Shown: piece after piece, positions 1,996 to 9,439 of the stretch
Layout of the letters: each line of letters starts with the position of its first letter
How positions within the stretch are numbered: the stretch's first letter is position 1
Origin: Oscillospiraceae bacterium
GTDB taxonomy: Bacteria; Bacillota; Clostridia; Oscillospirales; Oscillospiraceae
NCBI GenBank assembly: GCA_017409205.1
Contig: JAFQTF010000016.1
Location: forward strand, 1 to 55,386
DNA length: 55,386 nucleotides
Reading direction: 5' to 3'
Notes under the pieces: generated by a model
Seen by the model: the letters and a program-made list of their open reading frames with translations, nothing else
What the model was told of the DNA's origin: nothing
The model's database searches: none
Position numbers and translations under genes: made by a program

Positions 1996-2164
1996 CTAAA
2001 GTAAATTTCCACACCTTTTTGAAATTCTTTGATAAATACGGTCAAAAAATTTGAAAAAGGGCGTTAAACGGCAAAAGCTGTTTTGGGAAAGAAACAAATC
2101 AAACGGGTGAATTCGGTCTATTCTGCATAAAACAAGGATTTCCCCGTGCGAAAGGAAGATGTCA

Positions 2165-3094
2165 ATGAACTCCAAAACACTGATGTACGTCCTGAAACGC
2201 ATCCTGCTCGCTGCGCTGACGGTTTGGGTTGTCATCACCATCACCTTCTTTGTATCCCACGCGGTTCCCGGCGGTCCGTTCACGGGTGAGAAGGCGATCT
2301 CCGCCGCCGCACAGGCTGCTCTGGAAGCCAAATATGGCCTGGATAAGCCTCTGATGGAACAGTATTTCACCTATCTGAGCGATGTCGTCACCAAGTTTGA
2401 CTTTGGTCCCTCCCTGAAGCAGCGTGGTCAGGATGTCAACGACATTATCTCCCGCGGCCTCAGCGTCTCCATCAAGCTGGGTCTGTCCGCTGCTGCCATC
2501 GCTGCCGTCTGCGGCATCGTTATGGGTGCAGTTGCCGCTTTGAAGCGTAACTCCGTGCTGGACCGCTGCATCATGGTGTTCTCCACCGCCTGCGTGTCCA
2601 TGCCCAGCTTCATTATGGGCTCGTTCCTCTTGTTGATCTTCTCGTTGAAATTGGGACTTCTGCCGGCAAACGGCACAACGGCGGCTGGCCTGATCCTGCC
2701 GGTCATCACCCTGTCCCTGTCTCCCATGGCCAACATCACCCGTCTGACCCGTTCCTCCATGCTGGACGTTCTGGGCCAGGACTACATCCGCACTGCTAAG
2801 GCCAAGGGTGTTTCCGGCATGAAGATCGTCTTCAAGCACGCTCTGAAGAACGCCCTGATCCCCGTCATTACTTATGTTGGCCCCATGCTGGCCTACATTG
2901 TCACCGGCTCTCTGGTTGTTGAGAAGATCTTCGCTGTCAACGGCATTGGCCGTGCCTTCGTCGGCTCCATCACCGACCGTGACTACCCCCTGATCATGGG
3001 CACCACCATCGTGCTGGCTTCTCTGATCGTCATCATGAACCTGGTCAGTGATATCCTGTACAAGGTCGTTGATCCCCGCATCAATCTGGAATAA
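2165..3094 (+). CDS. oppB: Oligopeptide ABC transporter permease OppB
   Basis: Inner-membrane permease of a peptide importer (OppB/DppB family, binding-protein-dependent transport fold), 309 residues. It has six predicted membrane spans. The first is LLAALTVWVVITITFFVSHA. The EAA-type loop that contacts the ATPase is near YIRTAKAKGVSGMKIVFKHA (about residues 212-231), and the C-terminus ends VSDILYKVVDPRI as in the family. The start at 2165 is preferred over the ATG at 2159 because the ribosome binding site AAGGAAG (2152-2158) touches the earlier ATG but sits at normal distance from the later one. It is the first gene of oppBCDFA, and oppC follows after 15 nt. Confidence 0.93.
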   Translation: MNSKTLMYVLKRILLAALTVWVVITITFFVSHAVPGGPFTGEKAISAAAQAALEAKYGLDKPLMEQYFTYLSDVVTKFDFGPSLKQRGQDVNDIISRGLSVSIKLGLSAAAIAAVCGIVMGAVAALKRNSVLDRCIMVFSTACVSMPSFIMGSFLLLIFSLKLGLLPANGTTAAGLILPVITLSLSPMANITRLTRSSMLDVLGQDYIRTAKAKGVSGMKIVFKHALKNALIPVITYVGPMLAYIVTGSLVVEKIFAVNGIGRAFVGSITDRDYPLIMGTTIVLASLIVIMNLVSDILYKVVDPRINLE

Positions 3095-3109
3095 GGAGGA
3101 CAAGTGAAT

Positions 3110-4168
3110 ATGAACCTGAAGAAACTGTCCATGCATCCCGATCTGGATTGCTTTGCACCCGCATCGGAAGCTGAAAAGGAATATATGGTGCAGATGCGCC
3201 CCTCCTCTACCTTCTTTAAGGACGGCGTCAAGCGCCTGATGAAGAACAAGATCGCTGTCATCAGCTTCTTTGTCATCGTCATCATCACCCTTTGCTCCAT
3301 CATTCTGCCCATGTTCTGGCCCTATAAGTACGACCAGATGCTGGGCGTCAGGCCCGGCCGTCCTGTTAACTCCTCCTATAACAACCTGGCTCCCTTCGAG
3401 TACGGTGAAAAGGAGCTGGAGAGAATGGCTGAGGGCGAGAAGATCTTCCCCCACATCTTCGGTACCGATGCTCAGGGCCGTGACTACTTTATCCGTGTTG
3501 TCTACGGCGCCCGTATCTCCCTGGCTGTCGGCTTCTTCGCATCCCTGATCGTTCTTGTCATCGGTCTGACCGTTGGTTCCATTTCCGGCTACTGCGGCGG
3601 CAAGGTGGATATCGTCATCATGCGTATCGTCGATATCATCTACTCCCTGCCCGATATGCTGATGGTCATCCTGCTGTCCACCGTTCTGAAGGAAGTGCTG
3701 GCTCCCCTGATCGCCGGTACCGTCCTGGAAAAGCTGGGCGTCAACATGATCTCGCTGTTCATCGTCTTCGGTCTGCTGTACTGGGTCTCCATGTCCCGTC
3801 AGATCCGTGGTCAGATCCTGTCCCTGCGTGAGCAGGAGTACGTTCTGGCTGCACAGGCCACCGGCGCCCGCGGCAAGTGGATCATCATGAAGCACCTGCT
3901 TCCCAACTGCATTTCTGTTGTGGTTATCTCCACTGCTCTGCAGATCCCCAGCGCAATCTTCACCGAAAGCTATCTGTCCTTCCTGGGTCTGGGCGTCAAT
4001 GCTCCCATGCCTTCTCTGGGCTCTCTGGCTTCCGATGCACTGAACGGTATGAACTCCTACCCCTACCGTCTGGTCATCCCCGCAATCGTGATTTCCCTGA
4101 TCGTTCTGTCTCTGAACCTGTTTGGCGATGGTCTGCGTGACGCATTCGATCCCAAGCTGAACGGTTAA
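3110..4168 (+). CDS. oppC: Oligopeptide ABC transporter permease OppC
   Basis: Second permease of the peptide importer (OppC/DppC family), 352 residues, forming the membrane channel with OppB. The N-terminal soluble stretch leads to the first span (IAVISFFVIVIITLCSIILP), followed by an outside loop of about 70 residues. The core has five more spans and an EAA loop near QEYVLAAQATGARGKWIIMK. The C-terminus (LNLFGDGLRDAFDPKL) is diagnostic for the family. The ATG at 3110 sits 9 nt after GGAGGA (3095-3100); the in-frame GTG at 3104 is too close to that site. The gap from oppB is 15 nt. Confidence 0.93.
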   Translation: MNLKKLSMHPDLDCFAPASEAEKEYMVQMRPSSTFFKDGVKRLMKNKIAVISFFVIVIITLCSIILPMFWPYKYDQMLGVRPGRPVNSSYNNLAPFEYGEKELERMAEGEKIFPHIFGTDAQGRDYFIRVVYGARISLAVGFFASLIVLVIGLTVGSISGYCGGKVDIVIMRIVDIIYSLPDMLMVILLSTVLKEVLAPLIAGTVLEKLGVNMISLFIVFGLLYWVSMSRQIRGQILSLREQEYVLAAQATGARGKWIIMKHLLPNCISVVVISTALQIPSAIFTESYLSFLGLGVNAPMPSLGSLASDALNGMNSYPYRLVIPAIVISLIVLSLNLFGDGLRDAFDPKLNG

Positions 4169-4186: not shown

Positions 4187-5203
4187 ATGGCTCTGTTAGA
4201 AGTTAGAGACCTGCATACCTCCTTCTTCACCGATGCCGGTGAAGTCAAGGCGGTCAACGGCGTTTCCTATTCCCTGGACCATGGTAAGGTTCTGGGCATC
4301 GTGGGCGAGTCCGGCTCCGGTAAGTCCGTCAGCGCCTACTCCATCATGCAGATTCTGGCCGGCACCGGCAAGATCGTCAGCGGTTCCATCAAGCTAGACG
4401 GTCAGGAACTGGTCGGCGCTGGTGAAGAAGTCATGAAGAAGGTCCGCGGCAACAAGATCTCCATCATTTTCCAGGACCCCATGACCTCCCTGAACCCCAC
4501 CTATACCATCGGCCATCAGCTGATGGAAGCAATTCTGCTGCACACCAACCGCAATAAGCAGCAGGCTTATGATCGTGCTGTTGAAATGCTGCGTCTGGTC
4601 AACATCAATGAACCCGAAAAGCGCATGAAGCAGTACCCCTTCGAGTTCTCCGGCGGTATGCGCCAGCGTGTTATGATCGCTATGGCTCTGGCCTGCGAAC
4701 CCGACATCCTGATTGCTGACGAACCCACCACTGCTCTGGACGTTACCATTCAGGCACAGATCCTGGATCTGATGAAGCAGCTGCAGGAAGAGCTGGGCAT
4801 GGCCATCATCATGATCACCCATGACCTGGGTGTTGTGGCTCAGATGTGTGACGAAGTCATCGTTATGTACGCCGGCTCTATCTGTGAGCAGGGCACTGCC
4901 GACGAGATCTTCTACAACCCCAAGCACGAGTATACCAAGGGTCTGCTGCGCTCCATCCCCACTGTTGACAGTGATGGTTCCCGTCTGCAGCCCATCACCG
5001 GTACCCCCATCGACCTGCTGAATATGCCCAAGGGCTGTCCCTTCGCACCCCGCTGCGATGCTGCCATGAAGATCTGCATCTGCGAACGCTGCGAGCGTAT
5101 GCAGATCAACGAGAACCATGCGGCTGCCTGCTGGATGAACGTGAAGGAAGGCATCGCCAACGGCACCATTAAGCTGGACGATCAGAAAGGCGGTAATGCA
5201 TAA
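4187..5203 (+). CDS. oppD: Oligopeptide ABC transporter ATPase OppD
   Basis: ATP-binding subunit of the importer, 338 residues. It contains Walker A GESGSGKS (about residue 39), the ABC signature FSGGMRQR, Walker [13 protein letters not shown] and the H-loop ITHDLG. The C-terminal extension has the oligopeptide-transporter motif [10 protein letters not shown] followed by further cysteines; in the DppD structure the equivalent cysteines hold a 4Fe-4S cluster. The ATG follows AAGGAG with good spacing. The stop overlaps the oppF start (TAATG), so OppD and OppF are translated in step, as expected for a heterodimeric ATPase pair. Confidence 0.95.
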
Positions 5204-6192
5204 TGAGTGAAATCAGAAATGAAACTCCTCTGATCGAGGTCAGAAACCTGAAGGAGCATTTCCCCATTCAGGTCAGCGGTCTGAAGACCAAGCCCCTGAA
5301 GGCTGTCGACGGCGTTTCCTTCTCTATCAAGCGCGGCGAGACTCTGGGTCTGGTCGGCGAGTCCGGCTGCGGCAAGACTACCGTAGGTCGTACCATCCTG
5401 AACCTGTACAAGCCCACTTCCGGCGAGATCATCTATGACGGCAAGCCCATCAAGACTGCTGCCGACATCAAGGAATTCCGCAAGAAGGCCACCATGGTCT
5501 TCCAGGATCCCTACTCTTCCCTGAACCCCCGTATGACCGTTGCCGATATCATCGGCGAGCCTCTGGATGTCCATAAGCTGTATAAAACCAAGGAAGAGCG
5601 TCAGGCCCGTATTCTGGAACTGATGGACTACGTTGGTCTGAACTCCGAGCATGCCGCCCGTTACGCCCACGAGTTCTCCGGCGGTCAGCGTCAGAGAATC
5701 GGTATCGCCCGTGCTCTGGCTGTCAATCCCGAGTTCATCGTCTGTGACGAGCCCGTTTCCGCTCTGGACGTTTCCATCCAGGCACAGGTCATCAATATGT
5801 TCCAGGAACTGCAGGAAAAGCTGGGCCTGACCTATCTGTTCATCGCCCACGATCTGCTGGTTGTGCGTCATATCTCTGACCGTATTGCCGTTATGTATCT
5901 GGGTAAGATGGTGGAGCTGGCTGATGCTGATGAGATCTACGATCATCCCATGCACCCCTACTCCAAGAGCCTGCTGTCCTCCGTTCCCGTACCCGATCCC
6001 AACATCGCCCGGGCCAACAAGCGTATCATTCTGGAAGGCGACATTCCTTCCCCTCTGAACGCTCCCTCCGGCTGCCCCTTCCGTACCCGCTGCCGCTATG
6101 CAACTGACGTCTGCGCTCAGAGCATGCCCGAGTTCAAGGAAGTCAAGCCCGGCCACTTCTGCGCCTGCCATAATCTGGAGAACGTAGATTAA
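5203..6192 (+). CDS. oppF: Oligopeptide ABC transporter ATPase OppF
   Basis: Second ATP-binding subunit, 329 residues. Walker [10 protein letters not shown], signature FSGGQRQR, Walker [13 protein letters not shown] and the H-loop IAHDLL are all intact. The C-terminal motif [17 protein letters not shown] keeps the four cysteines of the family. Its ATG overlaps the oppD stop by one base. A hairpin (6210-6240) separates it from the binding-protein gene, so downstream oppA mRNA may be stabilised or uncoupled from the upstream message. Confidence 0.95.
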
Positions 6193-6281: not shown

Positions 6282-8102
6282 ATGAAGAAACTGATTGCTC
6301 TGCTTCTGGCAACTGTCATGGTTCTGAGCCTGGCCGCTTGCGGCGGCAGCTCCGCACCTGCAGCTTCCGATGCACCCGCAGAAGATGCACCTGCAGCTTC
6401 CGGCAAGGTGGATACCTCCGCTATGTCCGAGAAGGAAAAGGCCATCGCTGAGGGCGAGATCCGTAACGCTCTGGCTATGCTGATCGACCGTAACTACATC
6501 ATCGAGAACATCGCTCAGGGCGGCCAGACCCCCGCTTCCTCCTTCGTTCCCATGGGTATGACCGACTTCGTTGGCGGCCAGTTCTATGAGAACGCCGGTG
6601 ACCCCGATGACGGCTATGCCGGCTACTGGGACACCTCTGCTGAAGCCTACGAGGACAACTTCGAGAAGGCTTACGAGATCCTGACCAAGTACTATGATGT
6701 TGACGAGAACGGTATGCTGGTTGGTTTCCCCACCCTGACCTACCTGTACAACACCATGGAATCCCACAAGGCTGTCGGCGAGCACCTGCAGGCTGTCTTC
6801 GCTTCCATCGGCATCAATCTGCAGCTGGAGAACCAGGAATGGAACACCTTCCAGAACACCCGTAAGGCCGGCGATTTCTCCATCGCCCGTCACGGCTGGT
6901 ACGCTGACTACAACGACCCCGTTGGTATGCTGGACCTGTGGATGTCCAACTCCGGCAACAACGACGCTCAGCTGGGTAAGGGCGAGCATGCCAACCTGGC
7001 TGTCTACGACATGGACCTGACCCCCTGGGGCTACGACATTGTTGTTGAGAACGGCACCTGGGCTGAGACCTTCGACGTTCTGATCAACGTTATCAAGTCC
7101 TGCACCGACGAAGAAGCCCGCTTCGAGATGATGCACTACGCTGAAGACATGCTGGCTGCTACCGGCGCCCTGGTCAACCTGTACTACTACACCGACTTCT
7201 ACCTGCAGGACAAGTCTGTTGAGAACGTCGGCGTCAACCCCTTCGGCTACAAGTACTTCATGCACTCCACCGTCAATGGTGCTTCCGACTCCATCTCTGT
7301 CTGCCTGTCCTCCGAGCCCGACACCATCGACCCCGCTCTGAACTCCTCCGTTGACGGCGCCATCACCTGCCAGCACGCTTTCGCCGGCCTGGCAAAGTGG
7401 ACTGCTGCTGAAGACGGCTCCTACACCAAGATCGTCACCGACTGCGCTGAAGAGCTGGTTGCTCCCGTTGTCAACGAAGACGGCACCGCTACCTACACCT
7501 ACACCCTGAAGGAAGGCCTGGTCTGGTCCGATGGCGAGCCCCTGACCGCTGCTGACTTTGCCTTCGCATGGAACCGCGCTGCTTCTCCCGAGCTGGGCGC
7601 TTCCTATGGTTACATGTTCGACTACATCAAGCGCAACGAAGACGGCACCCTGGCTGTTGAGGCTGTTGACGATCGTACTCTGGTCGTTACCCTGAACAAC
7701 CTGACTCCCTTCTGGAACGAGCTGCTGGCCTTCACCACCTATATGCCCGTCCGTGAGGACGTCGTTGCCAACGAAGGCTGGGCTACCGAGGCTGGTACTT
7801 ACATCACCAACGGTGCTTACAAGCTGACCGAGTGGGAACATGATTCCGTCATGGTTCTGACCAAGAACGAACTGTATCATGATGCTGCCAACATCGGCAT
7901 GCAGGAGATCAAGTGCTACCTGTCCGATGATGACAACAACATCCTGACCAACTGGAAGAACGACACCTGGCTGTTCGTGGAGTCCTGCCCCACCAACGAA
8001 ATGCCCGCTGTCAAGGCTGAGTATCCCGATGAGTTCTTCATCGCTCCCTCCACTGGTACCTACTTCCTGCTGTTCAACATGAACGAGCCCCTGCTGCCCT
8101 GA
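6282..8102 (+). CDS. oppA: Oligopeptide-binding lipoprotein OppA with its two halves in swapped (circularly permuted) order
   Basis: Extracellular substrate-binding lipoprotein of the peptide importer (SBP_bac_5 family), 606 residues. The start at 6282 has AAGGGA 9 nt upstream and gives a clean signal peptide with the lipobox LAAC (Cys20), then an Ala/Pro-rich linker. Unusually, residues about 60-335 (from IRNALAMLIDRNYIIENIAQ to NPFGYKYFMHST) match what is normally the C-terminal half. Residues about 337-606 (from SISVCLSSEPDTIDPALNSS to TGTYFLLFNMNEPLLP) match what is normally the N-terminal half of the mature protein. In ordinary family members the FNMNEPLL segment runs straight into the segment that here begins the protein. 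The frame is open throughout and codon use is that of a highly expressed gene, so it does not look like decay. The order is what I see; preserved function is an inference. Confidence 0.88.
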   Translation: MKKLIALLLATVMVLSLAACGGSSAPAASDAPAEDAPAASGKVDTSAMSEKEKAIAEGEIRNALAMLIDRNYIIENIAQGGQTPASSFVPMGMTDFVGGQFYENAGDPDDGYAGYWDTSAEAYEDNFEKAYEILTKYYDVDENGMLVGFPTLTYLYNTMESHKAVGEHLQAVFASIGINLQLENQEWNTFQNTRKAGDFSIARHGWYADYNDPVGMLDLWMSNSGNNDAQLGKGEHANLAVYDMDLTPWGYDIVVENGTWAETFDVLINVIKSCTDEEARFEMMHYAEDMLAATGALVNLYYYTDFYLQDKSVENVGVNPFGYKYFMHSTVNGASDSISVCLSSEPDTIDPALNSSVDGAITCQHAFAGLAKWTAAEDGSYTKIVTDCAEELVAPVVNEDGTATYTYTLKEGLVWSDGEPLTAADFAFAWNRAASPELGASYGYMFDYIKRNEDGTLAVEAVDDRTLVVTLNNLTPFWNELLAFTTYMPVREDVVANEGWATEAGTYITNGAYKLTEWEHDSVMVLTKNELYHDAANIGMQEIKCYLSDDDNNILTNWKNDTWLFVESCPTNEMPAVKAEYPDEFFIAPSTGTYFLLFNMNEPLLP

Positions 8103-8130: not shown

Positions 8131-8158
8131 CCCCGGCTTCCTCGGAAGCCGGGGTTTT
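8131..8158 (+). terminator. Terminator of the opp operon
   Basis: A 10-bp stem CCCCGGCTTC/GAAGCCGGGG (8131-8140 with 8145-8154) with a CTCG loop, followed by TTTT. It lies 29 nt after the oppA stop. Confidence 0.85.
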
Positions 8159-8218: not shown

Positions 8219-9439
8219 ATGTATCCCAACGAACTGATGAAAATACTGGAGGATAATGCCTATGTCCGCACCGGCGGCTCCCCGGAGGAGCTGCGCTGCG
8301 CCCACTACCTTCAGGATTATGTATCCAAGTTTGGACTGAACGCTCAGCTTCAGCCCTTTGATGTCCCCATGGCAAAGATCACAAGAGCCGAACTGACAGT
8401 GGATGGTGTGTCCATTCCCTGTACCGGCTATCTGGGGGCAGGGAATTATGATGTGGAAGCTCCCATTTATTATCTGCGGGACACCGATCCTATCTCTCTT
8501 GCCAATGCAAAGGGGAAACTTGTGCTGCTGGACAGCTTTGTGGGTTACTGGAAGTATCAGGACCTGCTGAAGGCCGGTGTGGCTGGCTATATCACCTGCA
8601 ACGGAAGTCTGTTCCTCTCCGACCGGGATATCGATCAGAAGGAACAGCGTACCTATGTTCACCAGGGCAACCGGATGCCTGCGGTGAACATTCATGCTGA
8701 GGATGCAGTGAAGATCGTTCGCAGCCAGGGTAAGCTGGCCCGGATCGTTCTGGAGCAGGAGGAATGGGTGGGACAATCCCACAATGTCGTGGTGGATATC
8801 CCCGGCGAGGTGGAGGATTACATTGCATTCACCGCCCACTATGATTCCACCCATCTTTCCATCGGCGTCTACGACAACCTTTCCGGTGTGGCAGGCCTTT
8901 TGTACATGGCAGAGTATTTTGCAAAAAATCCCCAGCATTACAGCCTGCGTTTCCTCTTCTGCGGCAGTGAGGAGCGGGGTCTGCTGGGCGCCAAGGCTTA
9001 CTGTGCCAGTGAGGAGAACATTCAGAATTGTATCCTGAACATTAATCTGGATATGATCGGCTGCCTTATGGGCAAGTTCATCAGCTGTGTTTCCGCTGAG
9101 GAAAAGATGGTGCATTATATTTCTGCCATGTCCGCGGAGCTGGGCTTTCAGAATGATGCCTACCAGGGAATCTATTCCAGCGATTCCACACCTTTTGCCG
9201 ATAAGAATGTTCCTGCTGTGTCCTTTGCCAGGAATGCCCTGCGCTCTATGGCAGGCTACCATGACCGTTATGACATTCTGGATGTCATGAGCGGTGAACA
9301 GATGCAGGCAGATTTTGAATTCGTGCTGGCCTTTGCCAAGCGGATGGCTGCGGCAAAGCATCCTCTGTTTGCCCGGGAGATGCCGGAAAACATCCGTGCC
9401 AAGCTGGACAATTACCTTGGCCACAAGAGAATGAAATAA
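8219..9439 (+). CDS. M28 family zinc aminopeptidase with an inserted PA-like domain
   Basis: A 406-residue peptidase of the M28 (aminopeptidase Y/S) family, expected to remove N-terminal residues from peptides. The zinc ligands appear in order: FTAHYDS (His), YDNLSG (Asp), GSEERGLLGAKAY (catalytic Glu pair), NLDMIG (Asp) and GYHDRYD (His). Residues about 75-175 resemble the protease-associated insertion common in this family. No signal peptide is visible, so it is probably cytoplasmic. The start at 8219 follows AAGGAGG (8205-8211); the in-frame ATG at 8195 precedes that site and is rejected. It sits just behind the opp terminator, so it is transcribed separately but fits the use of imported peptides. 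Confidence 0.87.
   Translation: MYPNELMKILEDNAYVRTGGSPEELRCAHYLQDYVSKFGLNAQLQPFDVPMAKITRAELTVDGVSIPCTGYLGAGNYDVEAPIYYLRDTDPISLANAKGKLVLLDSFVGYWKYQDLLKAGVAGYITCNGSLFLSDRDIDQKEQRTYVHQGNRMPAVNIHAEDAVKIVRSQGKLARIVLEQEEWVGQSHNVVVDIPGEVEDYIAFTAHYDSTHLSIGVYDNLSGVAGLLYMAEYFAKNPQHYSLRFLFCGSEERGLLGAKAYCASEENIQNCILNINLDMIGCLMGKFISCVSAEEKMVHYISAMSAELGFQNDAYQGIYSSDSTPFADKNVPAVSFARNALRSMAGYHDRYDILDVMSGEQMQADFEFVLAFAKRMAAAKHPLFAREMPENIRAKLDNYLGHKRMK

Follow-up and report, generated by a model that had tools for sequence, protein, structure and literature searches.

The window analysed here, a stretch of 55,386 nucleotides of contig JAFQTF010000016.1 of an Oscillospiraceae bacterium, carries an opp operon whose last gene raises the question of whether its peptide-binding protein is a natural circular permutation, with the C-terminal half of the chain placed before the N-terminal half, as the first-pass annotation proposed, and if so how, and how often, such rotations have occurred.

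The binding protein of the window operon

2159..3094, + strand, oppB permease (Pfam BPD_transp_1)
3104..4168, + strand, oppC permease (Pfam BPD_transp_1, OppC_N)
4187..5203, + strand, oppD ATPase (Pfam ABC_tran, oligo_HPY)
5203..6192, + strand, oppF ATPase (Pfam ABC_tran, oligo_HPY)
6282..8102, + strand, circularly permuted oppA-type predicted lipoprotein with the P1 cut, 606 aa; 6264 is an alternative start (Pfam, PDB matches)
6282..6341, + strand, lipoprotein signal sequence up to the lipobox cysteine, LAAC (motif only)
6342..6428, + strand, tether linker, Ala/Pro/Ser-rich
6429..7274, + strand, canonical C-terminal half, placed first (PDB and half alignments)
7275..7280, + strand, join of the old C-terminus and the old N-terminus
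7281..8099, + strand, canonical N-terminal half, placed last (PDB and half alignments)
8131..8158, + strand, terminator-like hairpin with a T run (read from sequence)
8219..9439, + strand, M28-family peptidase, beyond the hairpin (Pfam Peptidase_M28)

The gene is the last in the order oppBCDF-oppA and, as previously noted, encodes the sole binding protein of the operon. The reading frame extends from 6264 or 6282 to 8102 (612 or 606 codons) with no internal stop; the ATG at 6282 is the preferred start, being preceded by AAGGGA and fitting the signal sequence better than 6264. Protein residues are numbered below according to the 612-aa version, and the AlphaFold model is of the 606-aa version. 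The secretion signal consists of a signal-like sequence and the lipobox LAAC, identified by motif only. Before oppB, at positions 537-1492, lie two small open reading frames that, by eye, resemble an ECF sigma/anti-sigma factor pair; a paralog of the binding protein on contig C60 has neighbours of the same kind. An M28-family peptidase gene lies 3' of the permuted gene in three operons (window, L038 and L081), and the enzyme perhaps acts on the imported peptides.

The sole Pfam match of the window protein is SBP_bac_5 (PF00496; 207.5 bits against a cut-off of 32.4), and it falls into two stretches. The best one places residues 403-610 on profile positions 11-212 of 368, and the other piece, covering profile positions 198-367, is located upstream of it. 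A phmmer search against the PDB aligned the protein in swapped blocks with B. subtilis OppA (8are; residues 343-607 on 21-288, 61-235 on 292-450 and, in a block that is weak on its own, 269-334 on 456-521), with Salmonella OppA (1b05; 409-606 on 70-279 and 63-236 on 286-440) and likewise with DppE. Both halves are thus homologous to SBP_bac_5/OppA proteins, and the canonical topology, in which the N-half precedes the C-half, is absent. The old termini are joined by a short segment, GYKYFMHSTV-NG-ASDSISVCLSSEPD. At the sequence level, these alignments confirm the protein as a true circular permutation of an SBP_bac_5/OppA-type lipoprotein, the reading that had been proposed. A leading segment unlike the C-terminal half of the family had been named as evidence against that reading; instead, residues 61-334 match this half. 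The earlier placement of the new ends near residue 270 of Salmonella OppA was slightly early, as the alignment puts the cut between 279 and 286. Structure prediction, suggested as a check, gave an AlphaFold model with a pLDDT of 89.3, of which a sequential structure alignment left the C-half uncovered.

The window protein shares with canonical OppA/DppE-type SBP_bac_5 proteins (8are, 1b05) the homologous halves, the character of a putative secreted receptor, the opp operon and, going by the model, perhaps the fold, but differs from them in the order of the halves and in the position of the signal and anchor. We take the cut to lie at the crossing from lobe 1 to lobe 2 of OppA and the joined old termini to fall in lobe 1; the lipid anchor, which in canonical OppA presumably stands before lobe 1, would stand before lobe 2 in the window protein. 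The gene is under purifying selection and shows no decay, in agreement with the earlier view of it: dN/dS against an 84% identical ortholog (L038) is 0.24 over 545 codons, and the values range from 0.05 to 0.24 across eight pairs including this one, with dS saturated in one further pair.

The genome of the window (1.76 Mb, 62 contigs, 76.6% complete) and most of the relatives named here are metagenome assemblies, and the swapped order might in principle reflect an error of assembly or binning. Such an artefact has next to no probability and is refuted for the family. A Pfam scan of this genome found five SBP_bac_5 genes, three of which, on contigs C61 (the window), C60 and C5, match in two pieces of inverted order and are opened near profile position 210; those on C26 and C38 give one-piece matches. 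The ortholog L038 belongs to a separate metagenome assembly and has the same operon and the same M28 neighbour. In addition, permuted genes are present in the single-contig genomes G878 and G591 (types P1 and P2 below, respectively), and selection has been purifying. Three rotated genes out of five, the ortholog elsewhere and the members in single-contig genomes together argue against an assembly error. At the thresholds used, no match appeared in the four further genomes of the genus that were searched.

The C60 paralog (L037:7297-9147, - strand) is full-length, permuted and 64% identical to the window protein over residues 7-612; no opp genes are located within the stretch available, and the adjoining genes resemble, by eye, an ECF sigma/anti-sigma factor pair. 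The third permuted gene (C5:47835-49544, - strand; L005, and L266:6836-8545) belongs to another subfamily; the nearest PDB matches of its product are NikZ/DppA-like, with residues 74-276 aligned to their C-part and residues 338-562 to their N-part. It is located ahead of its own B-C-D-F genes. Relatives of this gene with 36-41% identity were found in three other genomes (120 family genomes searched, own included; E up to 1e-40), and all of them are canonical. Genes of this kind are easily overlooked, because Pfam merely reports SBP_bac_5 in two stretches.

Cut sites and operon context

A search of 118 loci with the two halves separately revealed three permuted orders besides the canonical N-C order. 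In P1, the type of the window protein, the order is C-N; in P2 the chain is cut about 90 residues, and in P3 about 185-210 residues, into the C-half; in OppA residues, these cuts lie about 75 and 160 beyond that of P1. Among open reading frames of at least 150 aa, 269 had a match; after removal of 46 duplicates, 10 partial frames and 8 without both halves, 205 distinct proteins were kept (123 canonical, 51 P1, 18 P2 and 13 P3). The C5 gene is among the frames dropped. The sample was selected by similarity to the window and G878 proteins and therefore gives no estimate of frequency.

The P1 cut maps between residues 287 and 294 of B. subtilis OppA, the P2 cut to 364/367 in G591, within 348-365 in G888 and within 331-361 in L075, and the P3 cut within 450-457. 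In G1351, where the best match is 6npo, the P1 cut falls within 6npo residues 296-306. No cut inside the N-half was found, none of the 269 frames having two N stretches. The P1 cut lies in the linker between the halves, for which most close canonical relatives have about 12 residues. At the site of the P3 cut the close group carries a long insertion, which is absent from distant relatives. In 39 of 51 P1, 10 of 18 P2 and 11 of 13 P3 proteins the join comprises 5-6 residues between the profile ends. A lipobox-like motif precedes 49 of 51 P1, all 18 P2, 11 of 13 P3 and 110 of 123 canonical proteins. AlphaFold models of five P3 proteins have pLDDT values from 81.9 down to 58.3. Overlapping C pieces in the P3 protein L029 proved to be an alignment effect, as the near-identical L028 has no overlap. 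A P3-type gene in G290 (L131/L204) contains one in-frame stop and represents either a pseudogene or a sequencing error.

The search for the same order in related genomes, which had been recommended, was successful, one of the genomes (G878) being a single contig. With a probe laid over the C-to-N junction, alignments ran through the junction in 16 of the 394 order-level, 6 of the 391 class-level and 2 of the 398 phylum-level genomes (E up to 1e-18; the samples overlap and each count includes the window's genome), with the match in G290 in a broken frame and that in G623 beginning at probe residue 18. A second junction probe, from G878 and used on 291 class-level genomes, added G646, G591 and G698. 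Judged from the loci compared, 11 of 200 family genomes have permuted members. A further Pfam scan covered 40 family genomes in addition to the own one, and all of the matches listed were single-piece except for partial matches in short frames; this yields no frequency, because the matches listed reach about E 2e-42, the level at which matches start to split, and because P3 proteins (G007, G002, G036, G033) appear single-piece to the profile.

Within the close group, genes of the canonical order and of all three permuted orders occupy a common position behind oppBCDF. On the same strand, 41 of 51 P1, 14 of 18 P2, 10 of 13 P3 and 102 of 123 canonical genes are immediately preceded by an opp ATPase gene, which makes it very improbable that the permuted proteins have left the importer for another role, such as that of a sensor, with the rotation tied to a loss of docking. 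Genes without an opp ATPase directly upstream fit such a role, namely the C60 paralog, L058, six genes of G1351 and that of G1347; G345 and G888 also have none, and for three more permuted genes the sequence is too short to see it. Among the remaining four P2 genes, three (the group G591/G646/G698) stand in front of oppBCDF.

Number of rotations and possible exchange of operons

Phylogenetic trees were built on proteins rearranged, for this purpose only, to the canonical order. The rows were hand-picked (66, 52 and 69 for the binding proteins, and 41 of the 69 for OppBCDF); the order labels were fixed before the trees, and the subset tests were picked afterwards. In the close group (66 rows), P1 needs four changes and P2 needs two, and the backbone branches are weak. 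A single P1 clade was rejected (p=0.0034), chiefly because the P1 protein L124 groups with the canonical L103 (100/94), to which it is 82% identical in the N-half and 86% in the C-half. With L124 removed, P1 as one clade was not rejected (p=0.197), nor was P2 (p=0.36). In the 52-row tree, P3 forms one clade (100/100); a clade of all permuted proteins was rejected (p=8.5e-8), as were clades uniting P1 with distant P1 and P2 with distant P2 (p far below 0.001). The quick tree of 69 rows has 13 changes, and its starred branches force at least five for P1, three for P2 and one for P3. The P2 protein L160 pairs there with the canonical L228 (99), and groups with the P1 proteins L185/L192 in the 52-row tree, from which L228 is absent (100/99). 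The OppBCDF tree (41 rows), which contains no binding-protein sequence, also rejects one P1 clade (p=0.00015).

A single origin is thus rejected both by the order-normalised binding-protein trees and by OppBCDF alone. The number of rotations is best estimated as nine, with at least six as a cautious count, because neighbouring groups could represent one rotation followed by a shift of the cut. The nine are P3, main P1, L124, the G878 group, the G1351 group, main P2, L160, the G591 group and C5, the last being counted without a placement in a tree; all of them appear to have opened the chain in the C-terminal half. Some of these counts depend on weak branches.

In G261, a half-gene behind the P1 gene L124 was considered as a relic of duplication; in G226, of the same genus, its counterpart is the end of a complete canonical binding-protein gene of a different opp operon, with a collinear upstream flank. 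The leftover (L202:8457-9101) corresponds to the last third of the resident gene (L261:10094-11851 in G226), with 92% DNA identity. It is therefore read as a scar of operon replacement, and an oppBCDF operon with a permuted gene appears to have replaced the resident opp operon in G261. Four canonical operons (L086, L094, L095 and L115) are nested within P1 operons in the OppBCDF tree, which rejects a P1 clade without the nested canonical operons (p=2.5e-8, three tested); the binding-protein tree also places their proteins within P1, and the alternative was not rejected there (p=0.30). These four possibly represent one return to the normal order, or may have acquired it by replacement of the binding-protein gene with a canonical one. 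The OppBCDF trees put the window operon, on weakly supported branches, with canonical operons, and its binding protein groups with P1 proteins, so that a P1 lineage may have supplied the gene or the gene may have rotated independently.

One ancient permutation, inherited and passed on horizontally with its entire operon, would account for most cases if the apparent multiplicity were due to tree error. This reading could draw on the weak backbone branches among close relatives, the single P1 clade that is not rejected once L124 is removed and the apparent operon replacement in G261. It is nevertheless improbable. In its strict form it is refuted by the three cut sites, as one event would be insufficient without further rotations, and the rejected monophyly of all permuted proteins, the rejection of one P1 clade by OppBCDF and the permuted C5 gene with its three canonical relatives among 119 other family genomes all argue for repeated rotation.

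Origin and function of the rotated proteins

The tandem-duplication origin suggested in the first-pass annotation is plausible. If the mature region were duplicated internally, in tandem and in frame, the order N-C-N-C would result, and loss of the redundant ends would leave the rotated chain. As a guess, each rotation arose in this way, the most economical path given that the join is so short. In L124 the two remnants of the divided linker are still visible, with ILP-ATAK closing the protein and AVEAEN at its start. A fused double protein or a second N-half was absent from all 269 matching frames of this partial sample, and open frames of 1137-1175, checked as fused doubles, were not doubles. 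When up to 450 bases downstream of 192 genes (105 canonical, 50 P1, 18 P2 and 19 P3, not all distinct and fragments included) were scanned with the profile, no leftover of a duplication was found behind permuted genes; strong matches were seen only at L124, in the broken frames L131 and L170 and at the tandem neighbour in L203. The half-gene that a read-through alignment had suggested behind L078 was ruled out. The intermediates that would document the proposed path were thus not found in this sample.

Fission and fusion, or cut-and-paste of one half, would yield the same order without a duplicated intermediate, and we consider this route a possible but less favoured one. Both the lack of a fused double among the 269 frames and the joins of mostly 5-6 residues between profile ends agree with it. 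On the other hand, among the 18 frames of at least 150 aa that were set aside, the sole clear stand-alone half is the 215-aa scar of G261, listed twice, and tandem copies of binding-protein genes exist, which fits duplication. Five P1-type genes stand side by side in G1351 (L248, contig C13; about 32% identity to the G878 protein), and two canonical genes lie in tandem behind oppBCDF in G790 (L203), an arrangement from which rotations could start.

Permuted binding proteins are already known. Tp0684 (MglB-2) of Treponema pallidum, classified as 'Type Ic / Cluster Bc', is described as a natural circular permutation that is tethered and still binds its ligand; its permuted part has 13% identity to the canonical one, and its authors suggest a link between permutation and membrane tethering and leave origin from another gene open (PMC4990184). 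Like the window protein it is a circularly permuted binding protein, but it is a Type I/Cluster B sugar receptor, whereas the window protein matches only SBP_bac_5 / SBP family 5 in Pfam and the PDB. Members of the glycine betaine-binding and molybdate-binding families are likewise related by circular permutation, as listed by CPSARST; there the pairs are below 24% identity and represent a distant structural relation, in contrast to the close orthologs in one operon described here (PMC2395249). Permutation by duplication, described for DNA methyltransferases and swaposin, is a general model of how permutations originate, with intermediates documented in the methyltransferases (PMC3320104), in contrast to the permuted OppA family as sampled here. 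The available portions of PMC12667903 and PMC2861598 contain nothing on permuted OppA/SBP_bac_5 proteins. Among the matches listed (titles and abstract openings, with subscription journals mostly outside the scope), no published report of such proteins, or of repeated rotation within one operon, was found.

The window gene very probably encodes a functional OppA-type oligopeptide-binding lipoprotein that feeds OppBCDF, with its chain rotated, in a family rotated repeatedly at three places in the C-half; the analysis establishes the swapped order and its conservation, several origins, a predicted fold, purifying selection and the operon context, from which peptide binding, transport and lipidation are inferred only. 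It is most likely a working peptide receptor with the lipid anchor moved from lobe 1 to lobe 2. A few lobe 1 residues would bridge the former C- and N-termini, and, with the chain opened where it crosses into lobe 2, signal sequence and anchor would be attached to that lobe.

A broader reading, which we regard as rather doubtful, is that OppA-type receptors behave as closed rings with an evolutionarily mobile opening; within one orthologous operon, the chain would have been opened anew on many occasions, at three lobe 2 loops, and would at least once have returned to the normal order. The repeated reopening would then be explained by selection for the shift of the anchor from lobe 1 to lobe 2, through docking geometry or tether strain, and the process might be especially active in lineages such as that of the window, in which three of the five such genes are rotated, in two subfamilies. 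The published natural permutations of binding proteins that were found relate distant relatives; here, close orthologs with halves up to 82% and 86% identical differ in chain order at the same operon position, so that how, how often and why a chain is rotated become directly testable, and the permuted and canonical orthologs provide natural controls for folding, anchoring and docking.
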